Below are positions 54,145 through 62,321 of a stretch of DNA of 64,000 nt, one piece after another. The notes beneath the pieces are model-generated. The model was given only the letters and a program-made list of their open reading frames with translations, was not told the origin of the DNA and did not search any database. How positions within the stretch are numbered: the stretch's first letter is position 1; the number at the start of each line of letters is the position of its first letter. The stretch is from assembly GCF_018599245.1 (NCBI RefSeq), contig NZ_JAHEVJ010000004.1, positions 124,001-188,000 on the forward strand, given 5' to 3'. Origin of the DNA: Aliiroseovarius lamellibrachiae. GTDB taxonomy: Bacteria; Pseudomonadota; Alphaproteobacteria; Rhodobacterales; Rhodobacteraceae. A program made the translations under genes and the position numbers.

Positions 54145-55533
54145 ATGACGCTTGACCGCGTTCTTGAGCGTATTGACCATGACCTGACACACTCCGTTGA
54201 TCGGTTGTGCGAACTCTTGCGCATCCAGTCCATTTCCACTGATCCGGCGTTTAAAGTCCATTGTGACACCGCCGCCGAATGGCTGATCAACGACTTGAAA
54301 ACAATAGGCTTTAGCGCAGAAAAACGCGTGACGCCGGGCCACCCAATGGTCGTTGGCCATCATGATGGCCCTGGTGGCGAGAACGACCGCCATCTGCTGT
54401 TTTATGGCCATTATGACGTGCAGCCCGTCGACCCATTAGACAAATGGGACCATGATCCCTTTGCCCCCTTTGTCGAAGACACGCCAAAAGGGAAAATCAT
54501 CCGGGCCCGCGGCGCATCCGACGACAAAGGTCAGTTGATGACCTTTATTGAGGCCTGTCGCGCGTGGAAAGCCATCAATGGGTCATTGCCCGCAAAGTTA
54601 ACGATCTTCTTTGAGGGCGAAGAGGAATCAGGCTCCCCCAGCCTTGTGCCCTTCATGCAAGACAACAGCGACGAGTTAACCGCTGATATTGCGCTGATCT
54701 GTGACACATCCATGGTCAGCCCCGGCGTCCCCTCAATCGCCAGCCAACTGCGCGGGATGTTGAAGGATGAATTCACCCTTGTTGGCCCCTCGCTCGACCT
54801 GCATTCAGGTCACTATGGCGGACCGGGCCTGAACCCGCTTCGCGAAATGTCGCGCATTATTGCCAGCTTCTATGACGAAGAAACAGGCGCCGTTGCGGTT
54901 GAGGGGTTCTATGAGGGGGTAGCAGAGGTTCCCTCAGAATTGCTTGCGCAATGGGAAACCTGTGGATTTGACGAGAAAGAATACCTCGACAATGCCGGCT
55001 ATACGATGAGCCACGGCGAGAAAAATCGAACCAGCCTTGAACAGCAATGGGCGCGACCTACGCTGGAAATCAACGGTGTTTGGGGCGGATATAATGGCGC
55101 CGGATCAAAAACCGTCATTCCATCAGAGGCGCATTGCAAAATCACTTGCCGCCTTGTTGGCGACATGGATCCAGACGCCCTGCGCGACAAACTCCGCGCC
55201 CATGTTGAGGCACAGTTGAAGCCCGATACCAAAGTGATCTGGGACAATGATCTGGAAGGGTCCCGTGCATCAGTCATGGATATTTCCCGCCCCGAATTTG
55301 CTGCGGCACAAAAAGGCCTGTCAGACGAGTGGGACCGTGAAGCGGTATTTGTCGGCATGGGGGGCTCTATCCCAATCGCTGGGTTTTTCAAGTCCATCCT
55401 TGGGATGGAATCGATGCTGGTGGGGTTTGCCAATGATGACGACAAAATCCACTCACCAAACGAGAAATACGACATGAAGAGTTTTCACAAAGGCATCCGA
55501 TCTTGGGCAAGGATCCTGTCAGAACTTTCATAA
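54145..55533 (+). CDS. M20 family dipeptidase
   Basis: The protein has 462 residues. The two-zinc site reads FYGHYDVQPVDP, GASDDKGQLMTFIEA and FEGEEESGSPSLVP, the M20F/dipeptidase layout; a dimerisation lid (GGPGLNPLREMSRIIA) is inserted. It probably hydrolyses a range of dipeptides in the cytosol, since no signal peptide is present. ATG 54145 follows AAGGAG. It is the last clear chromosomal gene before the Mu-like prophage, and a terminator follows it. Confidence 0.93.
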   Translation: MTLDRVLERIDHDLTHSVDRLCELLRIQSISTDPAFKVHCDTAAEWLINDLKTIGFSAEKRVTPGHPMVVGHHDGPGGENDRHLLFYGHYDVQPVDPLDKWDHDPFAPFVEDTPKGKIIRARGASDDKGQLMTFIEACRAWKAINGSLPAKLTIFFEGEEESGSPSLVPFMQDNSDELTADIALICDTSMVSPGVPSIASQLRGMLKDEFTLVGPSLDLHSGHYGGPGLNPLREMSRIIASFYDEETGAVAVEGFYEGVAEVPSELLAQWETCGFDEKEYLDNAGYTMSHGEKNRTSLEQQWARPTLEINGVWGGYNGAGSKTVIPSEAHCKITCRLVGDMDPDALRDKLRAHVEAQLKPDTKVIWDNDLEGSRASVMDISRPEFAAAQKGLSDEWDREAVFVGMGGSIPIAGFFKSILGMESMLVGFANDDDKIHSPNEKYDMKSFHKGIRSWARILSELS

Positions 55534-55539
55534 ACAAAA

Positions 55540-55565
55540 AAAGGGGTCCCATTCGGGGCCCCTTT
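55540..55565 (+). terminator. Terminator of the M20 peptidase gene
   Basis: A stem AAAGGGGTCCC / GGGGCCCCTTT around ATTC, immediately after the stop codon, marks the outer limit for the prophage left end. Confidence 0.8.
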
Positions 55566-55706
55566 GCAATTCGCGACACTTCCAACTCTGCACCACCCTA
55601 AAATTTGCCCCTAAGCGGGCGGTTGTTAGTTGACACTTAATATTGCAGTACCCGGAAGACCCCGGAGGTTCTTGGAAGAACTCGGATGGGGCCTTTAAAA
55701 TAAGGC

Positions 55707-55731
55707 GCTTTATCTGACAATACGAAAAAAA
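55707..55731 (+). repeat. Candidate transposase end-binding site, copy 1
   Basis: GCTTTATC, eight bases, CGAAAAAAA. The right half (CAATACGAAAAAAA) closely resembles the AAGTACGAAAAAAA part of the first MuA site in phage Mu. A second copy of the GCTTTATC-N8-CG(A/C)AAAA pattern lies at 55966. Confidence 0.4.
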
Positions 55732-55896
55732 TCGCTTTGCAAAGAATGTCCTACAGTGAAGCGGTTTGGGGGGCGAATTGGCGCTGTGTCTGCCCACTGA
55801 AAATTTACGTGTTAGATGTCTTGATGCGCGTTTAAAGCCTGTTTTAAAAGGTCATAAGCGCTTTGTTCGGCTGAAAATTAAAACTGTGAGATTTTC

Positions 55897-56014
55897 CGAA
55901 CATGCACGGCACCGTGCATGTTTTTGTTTTTCCATGCATGTTCGTCGACCAGCCTTATATTTAGGGCTTTATCGAGATGGCCGCAAAATCAAACGGATAC
56001 CCGAACATGCATGG
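55897..56014. promoter_or_regulatory. Cluster of four CGAACATGCAYGG operator-like repeats
   Basis: Copy 1 is CGAACATGCACGG (55897-55909). Copy 2 is the inverted CCGTGCATGT (55912-55921), two bases away. Copy 3 is the inverted CCATGCATGTTCG (55932-55944). Copy 4 is CGAACATGCATGG (56002-56014). Copies 3 and 4 are exact inverted 13-mers. The cluster lies in the non-coding left end, next to the 3' end of the leftward gene ending at 56029. Nothing in the window identifies the binding protein. Confidence 0.6.
55966..55990 (+). repeat. Candidate transposase end-binding site, copy 2
   Basis: GCTTTATC, eight bases, CGCAAAATC: the same spacing and flanks as the copy at 55707, in the same orientation and 259 bp further in. 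Mu carries several MuA sites in its left end, so multiple copies are expected. Confidence 0.35.
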
Positions 56015-56028
56015 AATTTTGACATTTT

Positions 56029-56562
56029 TTACTGAAGCGTTGCCCAGCCATTGTCGTTTCTGGTTTGGGCCAGTTCTCGTTTGGTAATGCCGCGAGTGTG
56101 GCATTTGCAGATGGATTGATCGCAGCCGTCCAGAGGAAGATTAAAACCAACTTCAGCCGAAGCAAGCGCTCCATTTGAGGTCAACGCCGCCTTGCACGGC
56201 TCTTCCTGCGGACCTGTGCGGAATACTACCCATGGTAAGGCGCGTCTGGATTTAAAGGCCCGATTATTTTGCGCTACCTGACGTACAATTCTAACTGTCA
56301 TGTCGAGTGAATTTGCATGTTTAAAATTTTTCCGCCGTGCCGCCCCATTCAGGCGGGCTTTAGCTTCTTGAAAAAGTTCATCAACAGAAGCATGCTCCGC
56401 TTTGGTCCATTCTATTGACCATTCGATTGCACGCGTGAGGTCTGTTGGCGTCACACTTTCAGCATTCAAAAGGCCTGGAAAGTGTGGAGGTCTAGGTCGA
56501 CCGTCTTCCCCTACCTTAAATGGCATGCTTGTTTCAGTCTTACGAAATAGCCAGCCAAACAT
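56029..56562 (-). CDS. Repressor-operon protein with C-terminal Cys-x-Cys motif
   Basis: This 177-residue protein is not recognised with certainty. The N-terminus is polar with short helices. The C-terminal third has the pattern Cys123 ... NLPLDGCDQSICKCHTRG with Cys147, Cys152 and Cys154, which could bind a metal. A similar C-x(n)-LPL-x2-C-x4-C-x-C arrangement occurs in uncharacterised bacterial proteins. It starts three bases after the repressor stop, so the two are co-transcribed in the lysogen. It could be a lysogenic-conversion or superinfection gene. Confidence 0.65.
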   Translation of the reverse strand: MFGWLFRKTETSMPFKVGEDGRPRPPHFPGLLNAESVTPTDLTRAIEWSIEWTKAEHASVDELFQEAKARLNGAARRKNFKHANSLDMTVRIVRQVAQNNRAFKSRRALPWVVFRTGPQEEPCKAALTSNGALASAEVGFNLPLDGCDQSICKCHTRGITKRELAQTRNDNGWATLQ

Positions 56563-56565
56563 ATC

Positions 56566-57252
56566 CTATCCCCACTTATGGCTTGACCATACCACCTCGC
56601 CGATAACACCATCGGCAAGTGTGGTCATGTCGTCGCCAGTACGGTGCTCTTTGGCATAGGTTGGGTTGTCGCTAATCAGTGAAATTACCGTCTCAGGGAC
56701 CACTTCAAGTCGTTTAATACGCGTCCCAAAATCACCGTCATTGAAGGCGTATACTTTGCCGTTTCGAATGGCACGCTTGCGTTTATCGATCATAACCAAG
56801 TCACCGTCACTAATGCGCGGCTCCATGCTGTCGCCCTTGACCGAAATTAGAAAGCATGACCCCGCTGTGATGCCAGATCTTCGGAGCCACTCTTGCGTAA
56901 AGGCGAGGTGGTCTATGGGATCGCCGTCCATATTGATGCACCCATCTCCTGCTGCGACATGCCCTTCGAGCCTCTCGATCATCGCAAAAACTTTGTCGTC
57001 GATGCTCGCTTCGGTGACGGGCGCGATCTCACGTGGCGGGCCTATGTATAGCTCTAGATCAAGAGCATCACATATTTCACGTGCTCTATTTAGAGAAGTC
57101 CCGGCCTCCTTTGCACCATCTTTCTTCTTTCGCAAAACGCCGCGAATGGCATCTGCAGGGAGCCCGTGCGCCTTCTCTACAGCAAAAGCATTGCTGCGAA
57201 GAGCTTCAACGGCTTTTTCTACCAAGTTTTTAAAGTGCTCTTGCTGGGTCAT
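56566..57252 (-). CDS. Phage repressor with S24 peptidase domain (CI/LexA-type)
   Basis: The protein has 228 residues. The N-terminal part (about 1-70) is a helix-turn-helix-like DNA-binding region without an obvious strong signature. The C-terminal part is a LexA-type autoprotease with Ser142 in VKGDSMEPRISDGDLV and Lys180 in GTRIKRLEVVP. An Ala-Gly pair at residues 101-102 is a possible self-cleavage site. It is leftward and divergent from the early operon, with twin palindromes between. It corresponds in position to Mu c but is of the cleavable type, so SOS-linked induction is plausible. Confidence 0.88.
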   Translation of the reverse strand: MTQQEHFKNLVEKAVEALRSNAFAVEKAHGLPADAIRGVLRKKKDGAKEAGTSLNRAREICDALDLELYIGPPREIAPVTEASIDDKVFAMIERLEGHVAAGDGCINMDGDPIDHLAFTQEWLRRSGITAGSCFLISVKGDSMEPRISDGDLVMIDKRKRAIRNGKVYAFNDGDFGTRIKRLEVVPETVISLISDNPTYAKEHRTGDDMTTLADGVIGEVVWSSHKWG

Positions 57253-57256
57253 GTTG

Positions 57257-57276
57257 ATTCGGGAAAATAACCGAAT
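57257..57276. promoter_or_regulatory. Palindromic operator 1 (ATTCGG-N8-CCGAAT)
   Basis: Perfect 6-bp arms around an eight-base spacer, lying 4 bp upstream of the repressor start codon. The same arms and spacing recur 58 bp away. It is probably bound by the adjacent repressor, giving autoregulation. Confidence 0.65.
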
Positions 57277-57285
57277 TTTCCCTTA

Positions 57286-57314
57286 TTGACTATCGGTAAA
57301 ATTATAGATTATAA
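57286..57314 (+). promoter_or_regulatory. Early promoter of the prophage
   Basis: TTGACT (57286-57291), 17 bp, TTATAA (57309-57314). Operator 2 begins on the next base and would cover the transcription start, giving direct repression of the early operon. Confidence 0.6.
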
Positions 57315-57334
57315 ATTCGGTAACAAAACCGAAT
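57315..57334. promoter_or_regulatory. Palindromic operator 2 (ATTCGG-N8-CCGAAT)
   Basis: Same arms and 8-bp spacer as operator 1. It sits between the early -10 element and the first early gene. A weaker related half-site, TATCGGTAA, lies between the two at 57291. Confidence 0.65.
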
Positions 57335-57343
57335 GAGGGCCGC

Positions 57344-57586
57344 ATGAAACAATCACTGATAAATTTGGCAGACATGTACGCAGCCCATAAGGGTTTAACA
57401 CTTTCGACAGTTTCGACTTATGCGGCTGGGGACGGCAAATTTTTTGGTAAACTTAAAGGCCGCTCCAGTTGCACTCTGAAGACCGCCGAAAATGTTACAT
57501 CATGGTTCTCAGATAACTGGCCCACCGACCTCGAGTGGCCGCGTTCGATCCCACGCCCTCGCCCAACAAAGAGGGAGGCCGCGTGA
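57344..57586 (+). CDS. Small early protein in the Ner position
   Basis: The protein has 80 residues. The sequence LADMYAAHKGLTLSTVSTYAAG could form a helix-turn-helix, followed by GDGKFFGKLKGR and a Trp-rich TSWFSDNWPTDLEWP. Similar small proteins are seen in prophages of Rhodobacterales. It is the first rightward gene after the repressor, where Mu has ner, a negative regulator of early and repressor promoters. That function is inferred from position and the possible HTH, not proven by motif. Confidence 0.7.
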   Translation: MKQSLINLADMYAAHKGLTLSTVSTYAAGDGKFFGKLKGRSSCTLKTAENVTSWFSDNWPTDLEWPRSIPRPRPTKREAA

Positions 57587-57603
57587 TGGTTAAGGTGCAA
57601 AAA

Positions 57604-58110
57604 TCACCACAGGCCCCGAGAACTTCGGGTGGTTGTGACCATGATGCCGGATCCGCGCCCATCGTCTTTAAAGACCTTGCTGCCGCAGGTGTTGCACACA
57701 AGCGTGTTTCGTTTTTCCGTGCTGGGTTGAAGAATGCGTTTTTCAGATCGTTCGAAGCAGTCTGCACAAATCTCATGCGGTGGTTCGCCCGAGGGATCAT
57801 CCTTCTTCAGCGCATAGACACGGCCCCCCATGTCGGTCTGCGTAAGCTCATAGCGCGCCGCCTCATGCGCAAAGCGATCAGCGGCCTTGAGTTCCTTTTC
57901 AAGGCCCGCCAACGCGCGTTCAAGCGACATTTGATTGCGCTCGGCTTGGTTGAGTTCCTTGTAGAGGCTCAAAAGCAGTTTCTCAGCGGCCACGAGGTCG
58001 GGTTTTCGACCACTGAAGATCTCTTGGAGATTTTGAACGATCTGGGTCGAGGTGAGCAGGCCAGTGGCCCCACCGGAGACCATCGAGATGATGCTAGAAA
58101 TATCTGTCAT
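57604..58110 (-). CDS. Opposite-strand protein with coiled coil and zinc ribbon
   Basis: The protein has 168 residues. A short hydrophobic/glycine-rich start (SSIISMVSGGATGLLT) leads to a helical, probably coiled-coil section (about residues 38-88, KLLLSLYKELNQAERNQMSLERALAGLEKELK type). A zinc ribbon follows with Cys115/Cys118 (EICADC) and Cys139/Cys142 (LVCNTC). Unlike all neighbours it is leftward inside the rightward early operon, so it is likely an independently expressed cargo (moron) gene. The + strand frame over the same DNA is a shadow. ATG 58110 is preferred; 16 codons upstream are open. Confidence 0.75.
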   Translation of the reverse strand: MTDISSIISMVSGGATGLLTSTQIVQNLQEIFSGRKPDLVAAEKLLLSLYKELNQAERNQMSLERALAGLEKELKAADRFAHEAARYELTQTDMGGRVYALKKDDPSGEPPHEICADCFERSEKRILQPSTEKRNTLVCNTCGSKVFKDDGRGSGIMVTTTRSSRGLW

Positions 58111-58144
58111 GGCGCGACCATAACAACAAAGCGTGGGGGTGAAC

Positions 58145-58477
58145 ATGTCTGAGCGCAATCATCCCCTTTCGCAACCAGTTGCCTCGCAAAGTGGCCAGCC
58201 TGTCGGCCCTTTGCACACTACCCCCGAGGGTTGCCCTGTGCGCCTTCGGGGGGCTTTTGAGGCCCCCTCTCCACTCACGGAGAATTCGCCCAAGGGTAGT
58301 CACGCACCCCGCAGCGAAGCCGACCCCAGCCCGCGCCGCATGCCCGCGCGGTGCTGGGGTCACATTAAGCGCGTGGCAATTCGATTTGAACAGAGCTGGG
58401 TGGGCGACCTTGTCGGCGCACTGTGTCTGTTTGCAAGCGGTTACCTGGCACTGGTGGCAGCTTGGGTGTTTGGCTGA
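58145..58477 (+). CDS. Hypothetical small membrane protein
   Basis: This 110-residue protein has a polar, Pro/Arg-rich N-terminal part and one hydrophobic segment at the C-terminus (VGDLVGALCLFASGYLALVA). A GGGGGTGA ribosome site precedes ATG 58145. Its family is unknown. The coding sequence between about 58200 and 58370 is Pro/Arg-rich and of low apparent conservation value, so the frame could be partly spurious. It lies 18 bp upstream of the ParB-like gene on the same strand. Confidence 0.5.
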   Translation: MSERNHPLSQPVASQSGQPVGPLHTTPEGCPVRLRGAFEAPSPLTENSPKGSHAPRSEADPSPRRMPARCWGHIKRVAIRFEQSWVGDLVGALCLFASGYLALVAAWVFG

Positions 58478-58495
58478 TTTAGTAGGAGAACGAGC

Positions 58496-59356
58496 GTGAC
58501 CGTTTCTGAACCAAAAATTACAAGATTGCCCTTGGATCAAATCATTGTGGACGCTGAAAAGCGTTTGCGCCCTGTATCTGAGGTGGGCGTAGAAAGCTTG
58601 ATTGCATCCATCAACGAGCTGGGGGTGATCAAAGACCCAATCCATGTCCGGCGCAAAGGTCGGGGCAATGACACCCTGCTTGTTTTGATTGCTGGCGGGC
58701 ACCGTTTGGCGGCCGCAAAGCGCCTTGGCTGGGACGACATCCCCGCCCGCGTTTGGGCAGACGTTACCGACGATTTTGCAACGCTTATGGAAATTGACGA
58801 CAACCTGTCGGGCGCTGAGTTGAGCGTGTTGGAATTGAGCGTTTTTCTAGCCAAGCGCAAGCGGGTTTATGAGCGGTTGCACCCCGAAGTAAAGCACGGG
58901 GCGCAAGGCGGGCGAGGCGGCAACCAGAATGAAGCGGACATAATGTCCTTTTCAAAAAGTGTCGCAGAAAAACGCGAACTGAGTGACCGCCACATTCGCC
59001 GGTTCATACAGATCGGAGAGGCGCTTTCTGAACGCGAGGTCGCAACCCTTGGCGCGGCAAAAGCCCCGCTTAAGCTGAAAGACCTTTTGGAACTGGCAAA
59101 GATCAATGAGCCGATTGTGCGTGCTGATGTTGTTGGGAAGTTGGCTGAAGGGTCCGTTAAATCAGCGGCCGAAGCAATGGCGATGTTGAAACCCGCCGCC
59201 AGCACCGCACCCAAAGACCCCGCTGATGATGCCTTTAACGCCCTTTTAAAAGCTTGGACCCGCACCCCCATGGCGGCCAAGCGCCGCTTTGTTGACGAAT
59301 TGCGGGACGATCTGACGAGCCTTTTTGCTGATCACCCGGATTTGGAGGGGGCATAA
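58496..59356 (+). CDS. ParB/Srx-superfamily DNA-binding protein
   Basis: The protein has 286 residues (GTG start). It has an N-terminal ParB/sulfiredoxin domain: ITRLPLDQIIVDAEKRLRPV, then ESLIASINELGVIKDPIHV and the nucleotide-binding loop AGGHRLAAAKRLGW (Gly-Gly-His-Arg at 67-70). A central helical region includes SDRHIRRFIQIGEALS, an HTH-like element. No ParA is present, so plasmid-type partitioning is unlikely. It ends immediately before the transposase start, so it is expressed with it. A role in regulating transposition or in DNA bridging is inference. Confidence 0.85.
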   Translation: MTVSEPKITRLPLDQIIVDAEKRLRPVSEVGVESLIASINELGVIKDPIHVRRKGRGNDTLLVLIAGGHRLAAAKRLGWDDIPARVWADVTDDFATLMEIDDNLSGAELSVLELSVFLAKRKRVYERLHPEVKHGAQGGRGGNQNEADIMSFSKSVAEKRELSDRHIRRFIQIGEALSEREVATLGAAKAPLKLKDLLELAKINEPIVRADVVGKLAEGSVKSAAEAMAMLKPAASTAPKDPADDAFNALLKAWTRTPMAAKRRFVDELRDDLTSLFADHPDLEGA

Positions 59357-61498
59357 ATGAGCGTTTTAAGCCCGGATAAAGAATGGTGGACGGCCAGCGA
59401 AGTGGCAGGTGCAGCCTTGCCGGATATGCCAGGCACTCGGCAGAATGTCGAAGCGATGGTTAAACGGCTTAGCTGGCGTGATCACCCTGATCATGCCCGC
59501 AAACGTCAGGGGCGTGGCGGCGGATGGGAATATAATTGGAGCCTATTTCCCAGCCGCGCGCGCCGAAAGCTGTTGAAAGATGCGGCACCGTCCTCGGGGG
59601 CAACGCCTGTGAGTGATAGTGATCTGCACGCCTATTATGAGGCGCTGCCGGATAGCGCCAAGAAAAAGGCGCAAGAGCGTAAGCACATCCTTGATTGTGT
59701 GTTGACCCTAGAGCGGGACGATATGACCCGCGATGAAGCGGTACATCATGTCGCCAGAGAGGTGAAATTTTCGGCGCGCACAATCTGGAATTGGTTTGCC
59801 CTGGTCAAAGGCGCTCCGTCACTAAGTGACTGGTTGTATCATCTTGCCCCGCGTCATCGTGCCAGCGGTCGAAAAAAGGCCAAAGCGGCATGTTCCAAGG
59901 AGTTTTTTGAACTGCTAAAGGCGGATTATTTGCGCGTTGATGGCGGGTCTTTTACCGCCAGCTATGAGCGCCAAAAGGAGTGGGCAGAGAAGAACGGAAA
60001 GATCTTTTTGGCAGAGCGCACCGCGCGCCGCCGTATCAACGAAGAAGTGCCGCGCGTCACGCAAGTTTTCGCCCGTGAAGGCGAAGCTGGGTTGCTGCGG
60101 TGCTTCCCGCCCCAGACCCGTGACCGCACCGGCATGGTGGCGATGGAAGGCGTGAACGCTGACTGTCACAAGATGGACGTCTTTGTGATTTGGCCGGGCG
60201 ATGACAAGCCGTCGCGCGCGCAGATCGTCGCATTTCAAGATATCTATTCGGGCAAAATCTTAAGCTGGCGTGTTGACCGCAACCCAAACAAGCTGGCGGT
60301 TGTTGCCGCCTTTGGCGATATGATTGAACATTACGGCATTCCGCAGCATTGCCTGTTTGATAACGGGCGCGAATTTGCCAACAAATGGCTCACTGGCGGG
60401 GCGCCTACGCGGTTTCGGTTTAAAATCCGCGATGAGGACCCGCTTGGCTTGCTCACCCTTTTGGGCATTAAGATCCATTGGGCCACGCCTGGCCACGGTC
60501 AAGCCAAACCAATTGAACGCGCATTCCGCGACTTTGCGGATCACATCGCAACAGACCCGCGCTTTTCTGGTGCCTATGTCGGCAACCGGCCTGACGCTAA
60601 GCCAGAAAACTACGGTGAGCGCGCCATTCCGATTGATGAGTTTATCGAAGTGGTTGCGGAAGGTATCAATCGACATAATGCCCGCGATGGACGCCGCAGC
60701 CCAACCGCGAATGGTCGTAGTTTTGACCAGACCTTTGCAGAGAGTTATGCCGTTGCGCCAATCGTCAAGGCAACCGATGAACAGCGCCGCCTTTGGTTGA
60801 TGGGGCAAGAGGTTGTGAAGCTTCACGCCACCCACGGGCGCGCGGGCTTGCACGGCAATCTTTATTGGTCAGCCTGGATGAATGAGTTTTCCGGGAAAAA
60901 AGTCATTATGCGCTTTGATCCCGAAGACCTTCACGCGGGCGTTTATATCTACGATCTGGATGGCGCATTTCTTGGTTTTGCGCCCTGTGAGCAAAAAGTT
61001 GGTTTCTTTGATCAATATGGGGCCAAAGAACACAGTCGCGAGATTGCGCAGATCAAACGGGATGAGCGCCGCCTTCTTAAGAAAATCCGCACCAAAACGG
61101 CCAAAGACGCAGCGGCCGCTATGGCAAGCTTGACCCCCGACGCCCCTGTTGCGGCAGAGGCGAAGGTTGTGCAGATCCAGCGCGGCGAAACCCGACCGCA
61201 ATTGGCGCGCGTCCAACGCCCTGCATATGAAGACAAAACCACACCGGAGGAAGATGCGCAGGTCTTGGCATTTCAAAAGACGTTTGATGCGGACAAAACC
61301 AAGGCGATTGAAGCTGCGGAGCGTGAAGAAACTGCGCTGGATCGGTTTCGCCGCGCCTTGGATCTAGAGGCGATGATTGCGCGCGATGACTTGATTGGGA
61401 ACGGTGAAGCGAAATGGCTCGCGGGCTATCAGCAGAGCGCCGAATACAAGAGCCACAAGACGATGTTTGAGGATTTTGGCGAAGCAATATTCGCCTAA
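59357..61498 (+). CDS. MuA-like DDE transposase
   Basis: This 713-residue enzyme carries out integration and replicative transposition of the prophage. An N-terminal Mu-type winged-helix domain (WWTASEVAGAALPDMPGTRQ) is followed by an end-binding helical region. The RNase-H core has Asp269 (GVNADCHKMDVFV), Asp335 (LFDNGREFANKW) and Glu387 (AKPIERAFRDF). A Mu-transpos_C beta barrel follows (RFDPEDLHAGVYIYDLDG), with a charged helical tail that in Mu contacts MuB. MuA's triad is D269/D336/E392, so spacing is nearly the same. It follows the ParB-like gene with no gap. Confidence 0.95.
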   Translation: MSVLSPDKEWWTASEVAGAALPDMPGTRQNVEAMVKRLSWRDHPDHARKRQGRGGGWEYNWSLFPSRARRKLLKDAAPSSGATPVSDSDLHAYYEALPDSAKKKAQERKHILDCVLTLERDDMTRDEAVHHVAREVKFSARTIWNWFALVKGAPSLSDWLYHLAPRHRASGRKKAKAACSKEFFELLKADYLRVDGGSFTASYERQKEWAEKNGKIFLAERTARRRINEEVPRVTQVFAREGEAGLLRCFPPQTRDRTGMVAMEGVNADCHKMDVFVIWPGDDKPSRAQIVAFQDIYSGKILSWRVDRNPNKLAVVAAFGDMIEHYGIPQHCLFDNGREFANKWLTGGAPTRFRFKIRDEDPLGLLTLLGIKIHWATPGHGQAKPIERAFRDFADHIATDPRFSGAYVGNRPDAKPENYGERAIPIDEFIEVVAEGINRHNARDGRRSPTANGRSFDQTFAESYAVAPIVKATDEQRRLWLMGQEVVKLHATHGRAGLHGNLYWSAWMNEFSGKKVIMRFDPEDLHAGVYIYDLDGAFLGFAPCEQKVGFFDQYGAKEHSREIAQIKRDERRLLKKIRTKTAKDAAAAMASLTPDAPVAAEAKVVQIQRGETRPQLARVQRPAYEDKTTPEEDAQVLAFQKTFDADKTKAIEAAEREETALDRFRRALDLEAMIARDDLIGNGEAKWLAGYQQSAEYKSHKTMFEDFGEAIFA

Positions 61499-61577: not shown

Positions 61578-62321
61578 ATGTCAGAGACACCGCAACTTTA
61601 CAACAGCCTTGCGCCATTGCGGAACGTGACCGCGCTGGTCAGTCTGATTGAGCGAGTGAACAACCGCGCCATTGGCTTACCAGGTTTGGCTACCTTTTAT
61701 GGGCACTCAGGTTTTGGGAAGACCACCGCCGCGATCTATTCTGCCAATAAATTCAACGCAGTTTCGGTGCAGATCAAAGAGTGTTGGACGGGTAAAAAAA
61801 TGGGCCAAGCGATTTTGGCCGAGCTGGGGATAAAGCCACAGAAAACCATTTCTGACATGGTGGACCAGATCGCGCATGAGCTGTTGCTTTCGGACCGTGT
61901 ATTGCTCATTGATGATGCTCAATACTTGATTAAGCGGGGCATGATTGGTCTTATTAAAGACATCTATGAAAGCTGTGGCACCACGATCATTTTGATCGGT
62001 GAAGAGGAATTGCCACAAAGCTTGCAGCGGTGGGAAAATATTCACGGTCGCATGCTGGATTGGGTCGCAGCCCAGCCTGCTTGCGTGGCTGATGTTGACC
62101 ATCTCGCCAAGATTTACTGCCCAAATGTTGATCTGACCGCTGAGTTCAAAGCCCACCTGCTGAAAGCATCGGTGCATTCGATCCGCCGCGTGTGTGTGAA
62201 CTTGGGTAAGGTTGCAGAGTTTGCAATCACCAAAGGAACAGAAGAGGTGAGCCTTGAGGATTGGGGCAACCGCGCCTTTTTCGCAAGTGCTGCCCCAGCG
62301 CCTCGGAGGGAATTGGCATGA
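61578..62321 (+). CDS. MuB-like AAA+ ATPase (target-DNA activator)
   Basis: The protein has 247 residues. Walker A is GHSGFGKTT (residues 42-50), Walker B is VLLIDDAQYL (Asp112/Asp113), and the sensor region is TIILIGEEELP. In Mu, MuB polymerises on DNA, selects targets and protects the prophage from self-insertion. This protein lacks the 60-residue N-terminal HTH of MuB and matches the shorter transposition-ATPase form of other Mu-like phages. CAGGAG precedes the ATG. It overlaps the next gene by four bases. Confidence 0.92.
   Translation: MSETPQLYNSLAPLRNVTALVSLIERVNNRAIGLPGLATFYGHSGFGKTTAAIYSANKFNAVSVQIKECWTGKKMGQAILAELGIKPQKTISDMVDQIAHELLLSDRVLLIDDAQYLIKRGMIGLIKDIYESCGTTIILIGEEELPQSLQRWENIHGRMLDWVAAQPACVADVDHLAKIYCPNVDLTAEFKAHLLKASVHSIRRVCVNLGKVAEFAITKGTEEVSLEDWGNRAFFASAAPAPRRELA

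Follow-up and report, generated by a model that had tools for sequence, protein, structure and literature searches.

The array and its prophage

We analyzed a 64,000-nucleotide stretch of the Aliiroseovarius lamellibrachiae genome (the window), in which a Mu-like prophage carries an array of four short sites near its left end, at positions 55897-56014. The 13-mer CGAACATGCAYGG is found exactly at 55897-55909 on the + strand, at 55932-55944 on the - strand, and at 56002-56014 on the + strand. An earlier note on this DNA had counted four copies; the fourth, at 55912-55924 on the - strand, is imperfect and agrees at 11 of 13 positions (2 mismatches). The order of the sites is A+, B-, C-, D+. Site A reads CGAACATGCACGG with the core GAACATGCA at 55898-55906, and site B, the imperfect copy, has the core AAACATGCA at 55915-55923, 17 bp from A. 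Sites C and D both read CGAACATGCATGG, with cores at 55935-55943 and 56003-56011, D being 105 bp from A. The inverted copies around C and D are perfect over 15 nt (55930-55944 and 56002-56016), and those of A and B over 11 nt (55899-55909 and 55912-55922).

The prophage is 34,214 bp long. Its left terminus is at 55624, the first base of TGTTAGTTGACAC on the + strand, and it ends with CA at window-coordinate 89837. A 5-bp target duplication, GCGGT, occupies 55619-55623, with its second copy to the right of 89837, outside the window. The pair of termini was picked by eye, being one of three candidate pairs with a 5-bp duplication in one range and one of two in another, and the choice rests on an empty site in a relative (G008, locus L023), also compared by eye, in which the M20 peptidase is 96% identical. 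The terminal sequence matches the ends of relatives, including one end of the complete Thiobacimonas phage ThpS-P1 record. The array lies 273-391 bp inside this terminus, between the prophage end and the leftward repressor operon, so the earlier placement at the attachment end was right about the vicinity and not about the terminus itself. The same note described the DNA as free of genes, which is fair; the 89-aa + strand frame spanning the array (55766-56035) is a mechanical open reading frame. The operon includes an S24-type (CI-like) repressor gene at 56566-57252 on the - strand, and next to it is a repressor/early control region at 57253-57343, inferred from gene layout. On the + strand are a ParB-like gene (58496-59356), a MuA-type transposase of 713 aa (59357-61498), and a MuB-like AAA ATPase (61578-62321; PHROG: DNA transposition protein).

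The exact 12-mer core is found at three places in the 3.34-Mb genome, all within the array. With up to two mismatches it occurs at 476 places, whereas the reversed control pattern has 187, so near matches are in excess. Within the 64-kb window, matches to the motif with up to three mismatches are not above chance (42 found, 50.7 expected). None of these falls in 56015-58637, and so the repressor/early control region has no copies. A detector using layout (spacing) only scored the array at 51, and the next best place in the 64 kb at 39; in 25 randomized (first-order) copies of the window the highest score was 38. The prophage right end has no cluster of the motif. Terminal MuA sites of the L1-L3 kind were considered for the array and rejected, given the terminus at 55624 and the right end without such a cluster.

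Array layout and motif classes in relatives

Relatives of MuA were drawn from phage records, genome contigs, viral contigs and further genomes. The scan of left ends for the terminus gave 52 rows (49 distinct), and 30 left ends were taken. Motif classes and the presence of an array were judged by eye from left-end DNA. Including this prophage, 28 of the 30 recognized left ends have an array, as do all 10 of the newer ones (38 out of 40). The inverted sites stand at the same distance from the end and the motif is usually different: GAAC followed by ATGCA, nTACA, TGGGA, TGCGA or ATGGA. The exact 12-mer was present in only one of 35 loci, L015, yet arrays with other motifs were there, so absence of the same motif from related prophages, offered by the note as grounds for refutation, would have misled.

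It is the spacing that is kept. In 33 of 37 phages the 9-bp cores of A and D, with up to two mismatches allowed, are separated by 103-107 bp, or about ten helical turns; the script counted 34, and the pair in L092 was discounted as chance. A minus site exactly 17 bp after A is found in 18 of the 37, with other offsets (9-33) seen once each, and site C is 35-37 bp from A in 21. In L095 the minus site is at 24 and the A-D distance is 107. As a control, A-D pairs of the phage's own class core (up to one mismatch) were found in 26 of the 37 phages and those of other classes in 1-7 of 21-36 phages per class, where similar cores overlap.

Overall, 39 of 64 distinct loci have an array (28 + 10 + 1) and two have a recognized end without one. 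Those two, L118 and L120, are distant relatives in which the MuA helix reads DR and ER, respectively; L118 also has no ParB-like match. For the remaining 23, neither an array by spacing nor a left end by profile was found in the available DNA. They include Aussie, in which sites were later found by motif, and Mu, which is known to differ; the rest are uninformative either way. L117 (helix TR) has an array-like match within background and was left out of the counts.

Two relatives have unusual left ends. In L146 (G612), site A is at 387, compared to 254-298 elsewhere, with the array about 100 bp farther from the terminus. L109 (G283) has left-end-like sequences at both 424 and 3068 (oriented coordinates), 2.6 kb apart, which may reflect the insertion of one transposable phage into another or next to it.

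Covariation of the motif with MuA

To find which protein goes with the motif, we scored 1241 protein columns from 37 phages (MuA 708, ParB-like 280, S24 repressor 173, Ner-like 80) by shuffle-corrected mutual information over joint entropy, leaving columns with fewer than 20 sequences unscored. L125, with an array and a MuA start outside the available DNA, and L152, found later, were not in the scan. The top three of all columns are MuA 28 (0.678), 29 (0.373) and 32 (0.306). The best ParB-like column is fourth (0.157), and the best Ner-like and repressor columns score 0.142 and 0.130. In 27 phages the pair at 28/29 goes with the motif as follows: RQ with ATGCA, QQ with TACA, KR with TGGGA, AR with TGCGA, and CR with ATGGA. 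Among all 37, the pair fixes the class except for AR (two TGCGA, one TTGGA).

The covariation is not from shared ancestry alone, as the motif class changed at least 12 times on a tree of the rest of MuA and independent pairs agree in 7 of 7 cases for TGGGA with K28 (p 0.016). The tree was built quickly from 32 MuA proteins trimmed of residues 1-90, five of the 37 having been dropped for a MuA under 600 aa. Three other traits gave agreement in 5/5, 4/4 and 5/5 independent pairs, each too few for significance alone. The ParB-like gene, which lies between the array and MuA, does not vary with the motif; this argues against a single linked block carrying array and MuA together. The note had proposed a second DNA-binding protein for these sites, such as the ParB-like, a helix-turn-helix or a host protein. 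That the array is separate from the repressor operators and concerns the transposase held up; a second protein found no support, the motif class being predicted by MuA residues.

These residues belong to the N-terminal I-alpha winged-helix domain of MuA (codons 1-78, 59357-59590, + strand), which would be the domain that reads the array. A nine-sequence profile of MuA 1-90 matched the Mu transposase domain (1tns/1tnt, E 1.2e-7) and, weakly, the N-terminal domain of the Mu repressor (1g4d/1qpm, E 0.25). The predicted structure (mean predicted local distance difference test score, pLDDT, 80.5) has a helix at residues 28-38 (59438-59470, + strand), and residues 28, 29 and 32 are modeled at its start. 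Its best fold match by Foldseek was also 1tns (E 2.5e-3), with no match under 0.001. The three positions are R, Q and E here and S, A and I in Mu. MuA is the only protein of this prophage with an I-alpha-like domain among frames of at least 25 aa; searches of the 37 loci, each from its left end through the available DNA, likewise found this domain in MuA alone.

The motif rules were fixed in advance and then applied to the left ends of 15 further prophages. Ten had a recognizable terminus, all with an array. Of the five without a terminus by profile (G511a, G503, G539, G558, G646), only G539 gave an array by spacing. For 28/29 pairs seen previously the prediction was right in seven of eight new prophages: TGGGA in G571, G511b, G552, G474 and G539, nTACA in G504a, and ATGCA in G504b. 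G511b and G504b fit the rule and lacked an individual advance listing. The Sinorhizobium phages Aussie and StopSmel, with helix RQ, have four exact copies of AACATGCA each, at 321, 336, 407 and 443 and at 322, 337, 408 and 444, respectively, with no further exact copy in the 15.5 kb and 13.9 kb examined. As the two are closely alike, they may count as one confirmation.

A candidate transposition enhancer

Taken together, these data suggest, with a probability of roughly 0.8, that the array is a transposition enhancer (internal activation sequence) to which the phage's own MuA binds through its I-alpha domain, with the DNA code of the array co-evolving with MuA. We infer from sequence that MuA binds the array and that this binding would aid transpososome assembly. 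The winged-helix domain would read GAACATGCA through the start of its helix (R28, Q29, E32). The four sites over about 105 bp could then act as a scaffold to gather MuA subunits, held at both phage ends by their other domains, into a left end-enhancer-right end (L-E-R) synapse before cleavage; in some relatives an IHF-like site in the C-D gap would bend this scaffold.

Consistent with bending, the gap between C and D has a match to WATCAANNNNTTR, which we take to be the IHF consensus, with up to one mismatch in 15 of 36 phages, compared to 1.2 expected by shuffling. Of these 15 matches, ten have an offset of 60-62 from A. In six equally long control stretches, matches occurred in 1, 0, 0, 7, 0 and 1 of the 36 phages. 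This count omits L015, which has no site A, and uses a position of A inferred from D in L092. The match in this prophage is AATCAAACGGATA at 55987-55999 on the + strand, one mismatch from the consensus.

A number of results weigh against an enhancer of this kind. All four sites are within two mismatches in only 13 of the 37 phages, with one or more missing or degenerate elsewhere. The nearest relative, L015, lacks A and B, leaving C and D, and its MuA frame breaks off at 366 aa. The two Sinorhizobium phages order their sites + - + -, and a spacing search of Mu gave nothing above background. No exact AACATGCA was found in five more RQ loci (L018, L096, L103, L107, L110); the left end is unrecognized in all five, so its absence there is not contrary evidence. 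On the tree, phages of one motif class group together to some extent, with 12 class changes compared to a mean of 16.7 for shuffled labels. G612, with AR and other residues at 30 and 32, was predicted to have TGCGA and has TTGGA. Pairs not seen before were only partly right, none of three fully: TTGGA was found in G601a and G601b, where TGnGA was predicted, and TTGAA in G524, where TGnCA was predicted. Given seven of eight known pairs and none of the three new ones, the code works as a look-up for known helices and not yet as a residue-by-residue grammar. As to bending, 21 of the 36 phages show no IHF-like match in the C-D gap, and the control stretch that matched in seven is near the terminus. 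The match in this prophage is at offset 89 from A instead of 60-62, making the IHF-like site weak for this phage.

Binding by MuA could also serve another end. The I-alpha domain may occupy the array chiefly for transcription control, for example of the leftward repressor operon ending at 56029, and not for synapsis. The array is just past the 3' end of that operon, and covariation identifies the reader and not the purpose. However, the single promoter-like site in 55500-57500 (2.6 in shuffles; sigma-70 consensus only) starts at 55672, outside the array, the gene next to the array differs among relatives, and the kept 105-bp spacing with the IHF-like site suits a scaffold. We consider this explanation unlikely.

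Less probable again is that the sites are operators of the repressor, a Ner-like protein or the ParB-like protein. Inverted pairs of sites resemble operators, and the ParB-like gene is present in all 37 scanned phages and missing from L118, one of the two phages without an array. None of these proteins, however, has a column approaching MuA 28. In the scan only 26 of the 37 phages contributed a relative of the repressor, and 23 one of Ner, which limits it to repressors of this type and is a further point against the enhancer.

The array was also considered as a Rho-independent terminator that protects the prophage against transcription entering from the host, as the + strand has an 11-pair stem at 55898-55923 and a T-rich tail after it. 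The region has five terminator-like sites compared to 3.1 in shuffles. In the ten bases after B there are seven T here and six in L101, but 0-5 in the other 16 of the 18 arrays with the 17-bp site. A terminator accounts for neither C and D nor the covariation with MuA, and as the role of the array it is very improbable; a terminator might exist alongside, as a by-product of sites A and B. Host-protein sites or chance repeats, to which the many near matches in the genome might point, have next to no likelihood, as the exact core is confined to the array, the motif varies but the spacing is kept among phages that share a host family, and random copies of the window fall short of the array score.

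The enhancer remains the preferred reading, and Mu offers the closest comparison. Excerpts of the Mu literature describe binding of the transposition enhancer by the I-alpha domain of MuA (PMC3562280, PMC3362531) and the action of IHF at the enhancer (PMC5847225, PMC3820752). Like the Mu enhancer or internal activation sequence (O1-O2, operator-enhancer), the array is an internal cis element nearer the left end of a Mu-type transposable phage, as judged from its termini, target duplication, MuA and MuB. The Mu enhancer shares its position at the early promoter with the repressor operators; the array instead stands apart, on the far side of the repressor gene, and has four sites of another sequence. 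As it is apart from the operators, it would work like the Mu enhancer as a relocated variant. The S24 repressor is unrelated to that of Mu and has no I-alpha-like domain. In Mu, the repressor and MuA can compete for enhancer binding, a form of control that should be absent here. A ParB/parS-like partition site does not fit, given that the sites do not track the ParB-like protein. The Mu attL/attR end sites (L1-L3, R1-R3) are also MuA sites near an end, but in the portions of the Mu literature consulted they are read by the I-beta/gamma domains. For that reason the mismatch of the motif to the MuA end-site consensus, raised in the note, is no objection.

Candidate end sites for I-beta/gamma are present elsewhere. 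At 55651-55690, CGGAAG-like words (CGGAAG, CGGAGG, TGGAAG, CGGATG) recur about every 10 bp, and similar words are at the left ends of relatives. The gene at 56029-56562, between the repressor and the array, had no Pfam or PHROG match and no homologue among viral contigs or phage records. Its place is taken by a different 187-aa frame in L015, and among the loci compared only L020 has a relative (37%); this is perhaps an accessory slot. Beyond the tail genes near the right end, window-coordinates 88092-89668 (L010 14092-15668) contain frames of 333 and 192 aa, perhaps cargo.

More tentatively, and at somewhat less than even odds, the enhancer and the I-alpha helix may form a switchable address code of transposable phages. 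The matched switches, at least 12 of them, would keep each transposase on its own DNA and prevent cross-assembly of related prophages in one cell. The classes are ATGCA, nTACA, TGGGA, TGCGA, ATGGA, TTGGA and TTGAA. G504 has two related prophages with different codes (L147 and L148; ATACA and ATGCA), and G601 has two that share TTGGA (L144, L145). Neither such an array nor the covariation is described among the literature matches listed, which comprise titles and the starts of abstracts, with most subscription journals outside the coverage. The word enhancer is absent from the main text of the ThpS-P1/PeaS-P1 paper.

In Mu the enhancer and the operators are one stretch, making their roles hard to separate. 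In this prophage family the enhancer would stand by itself, its spacing conserved, with specificity variants supplied by nature and three residues that vary with the sequence of the sites. The L-E-R model and the reading of DNA by I-alpha would become directly testable by residue exchange, and enhancers in uncharacterized Mu-like phages could be found by a simple route.
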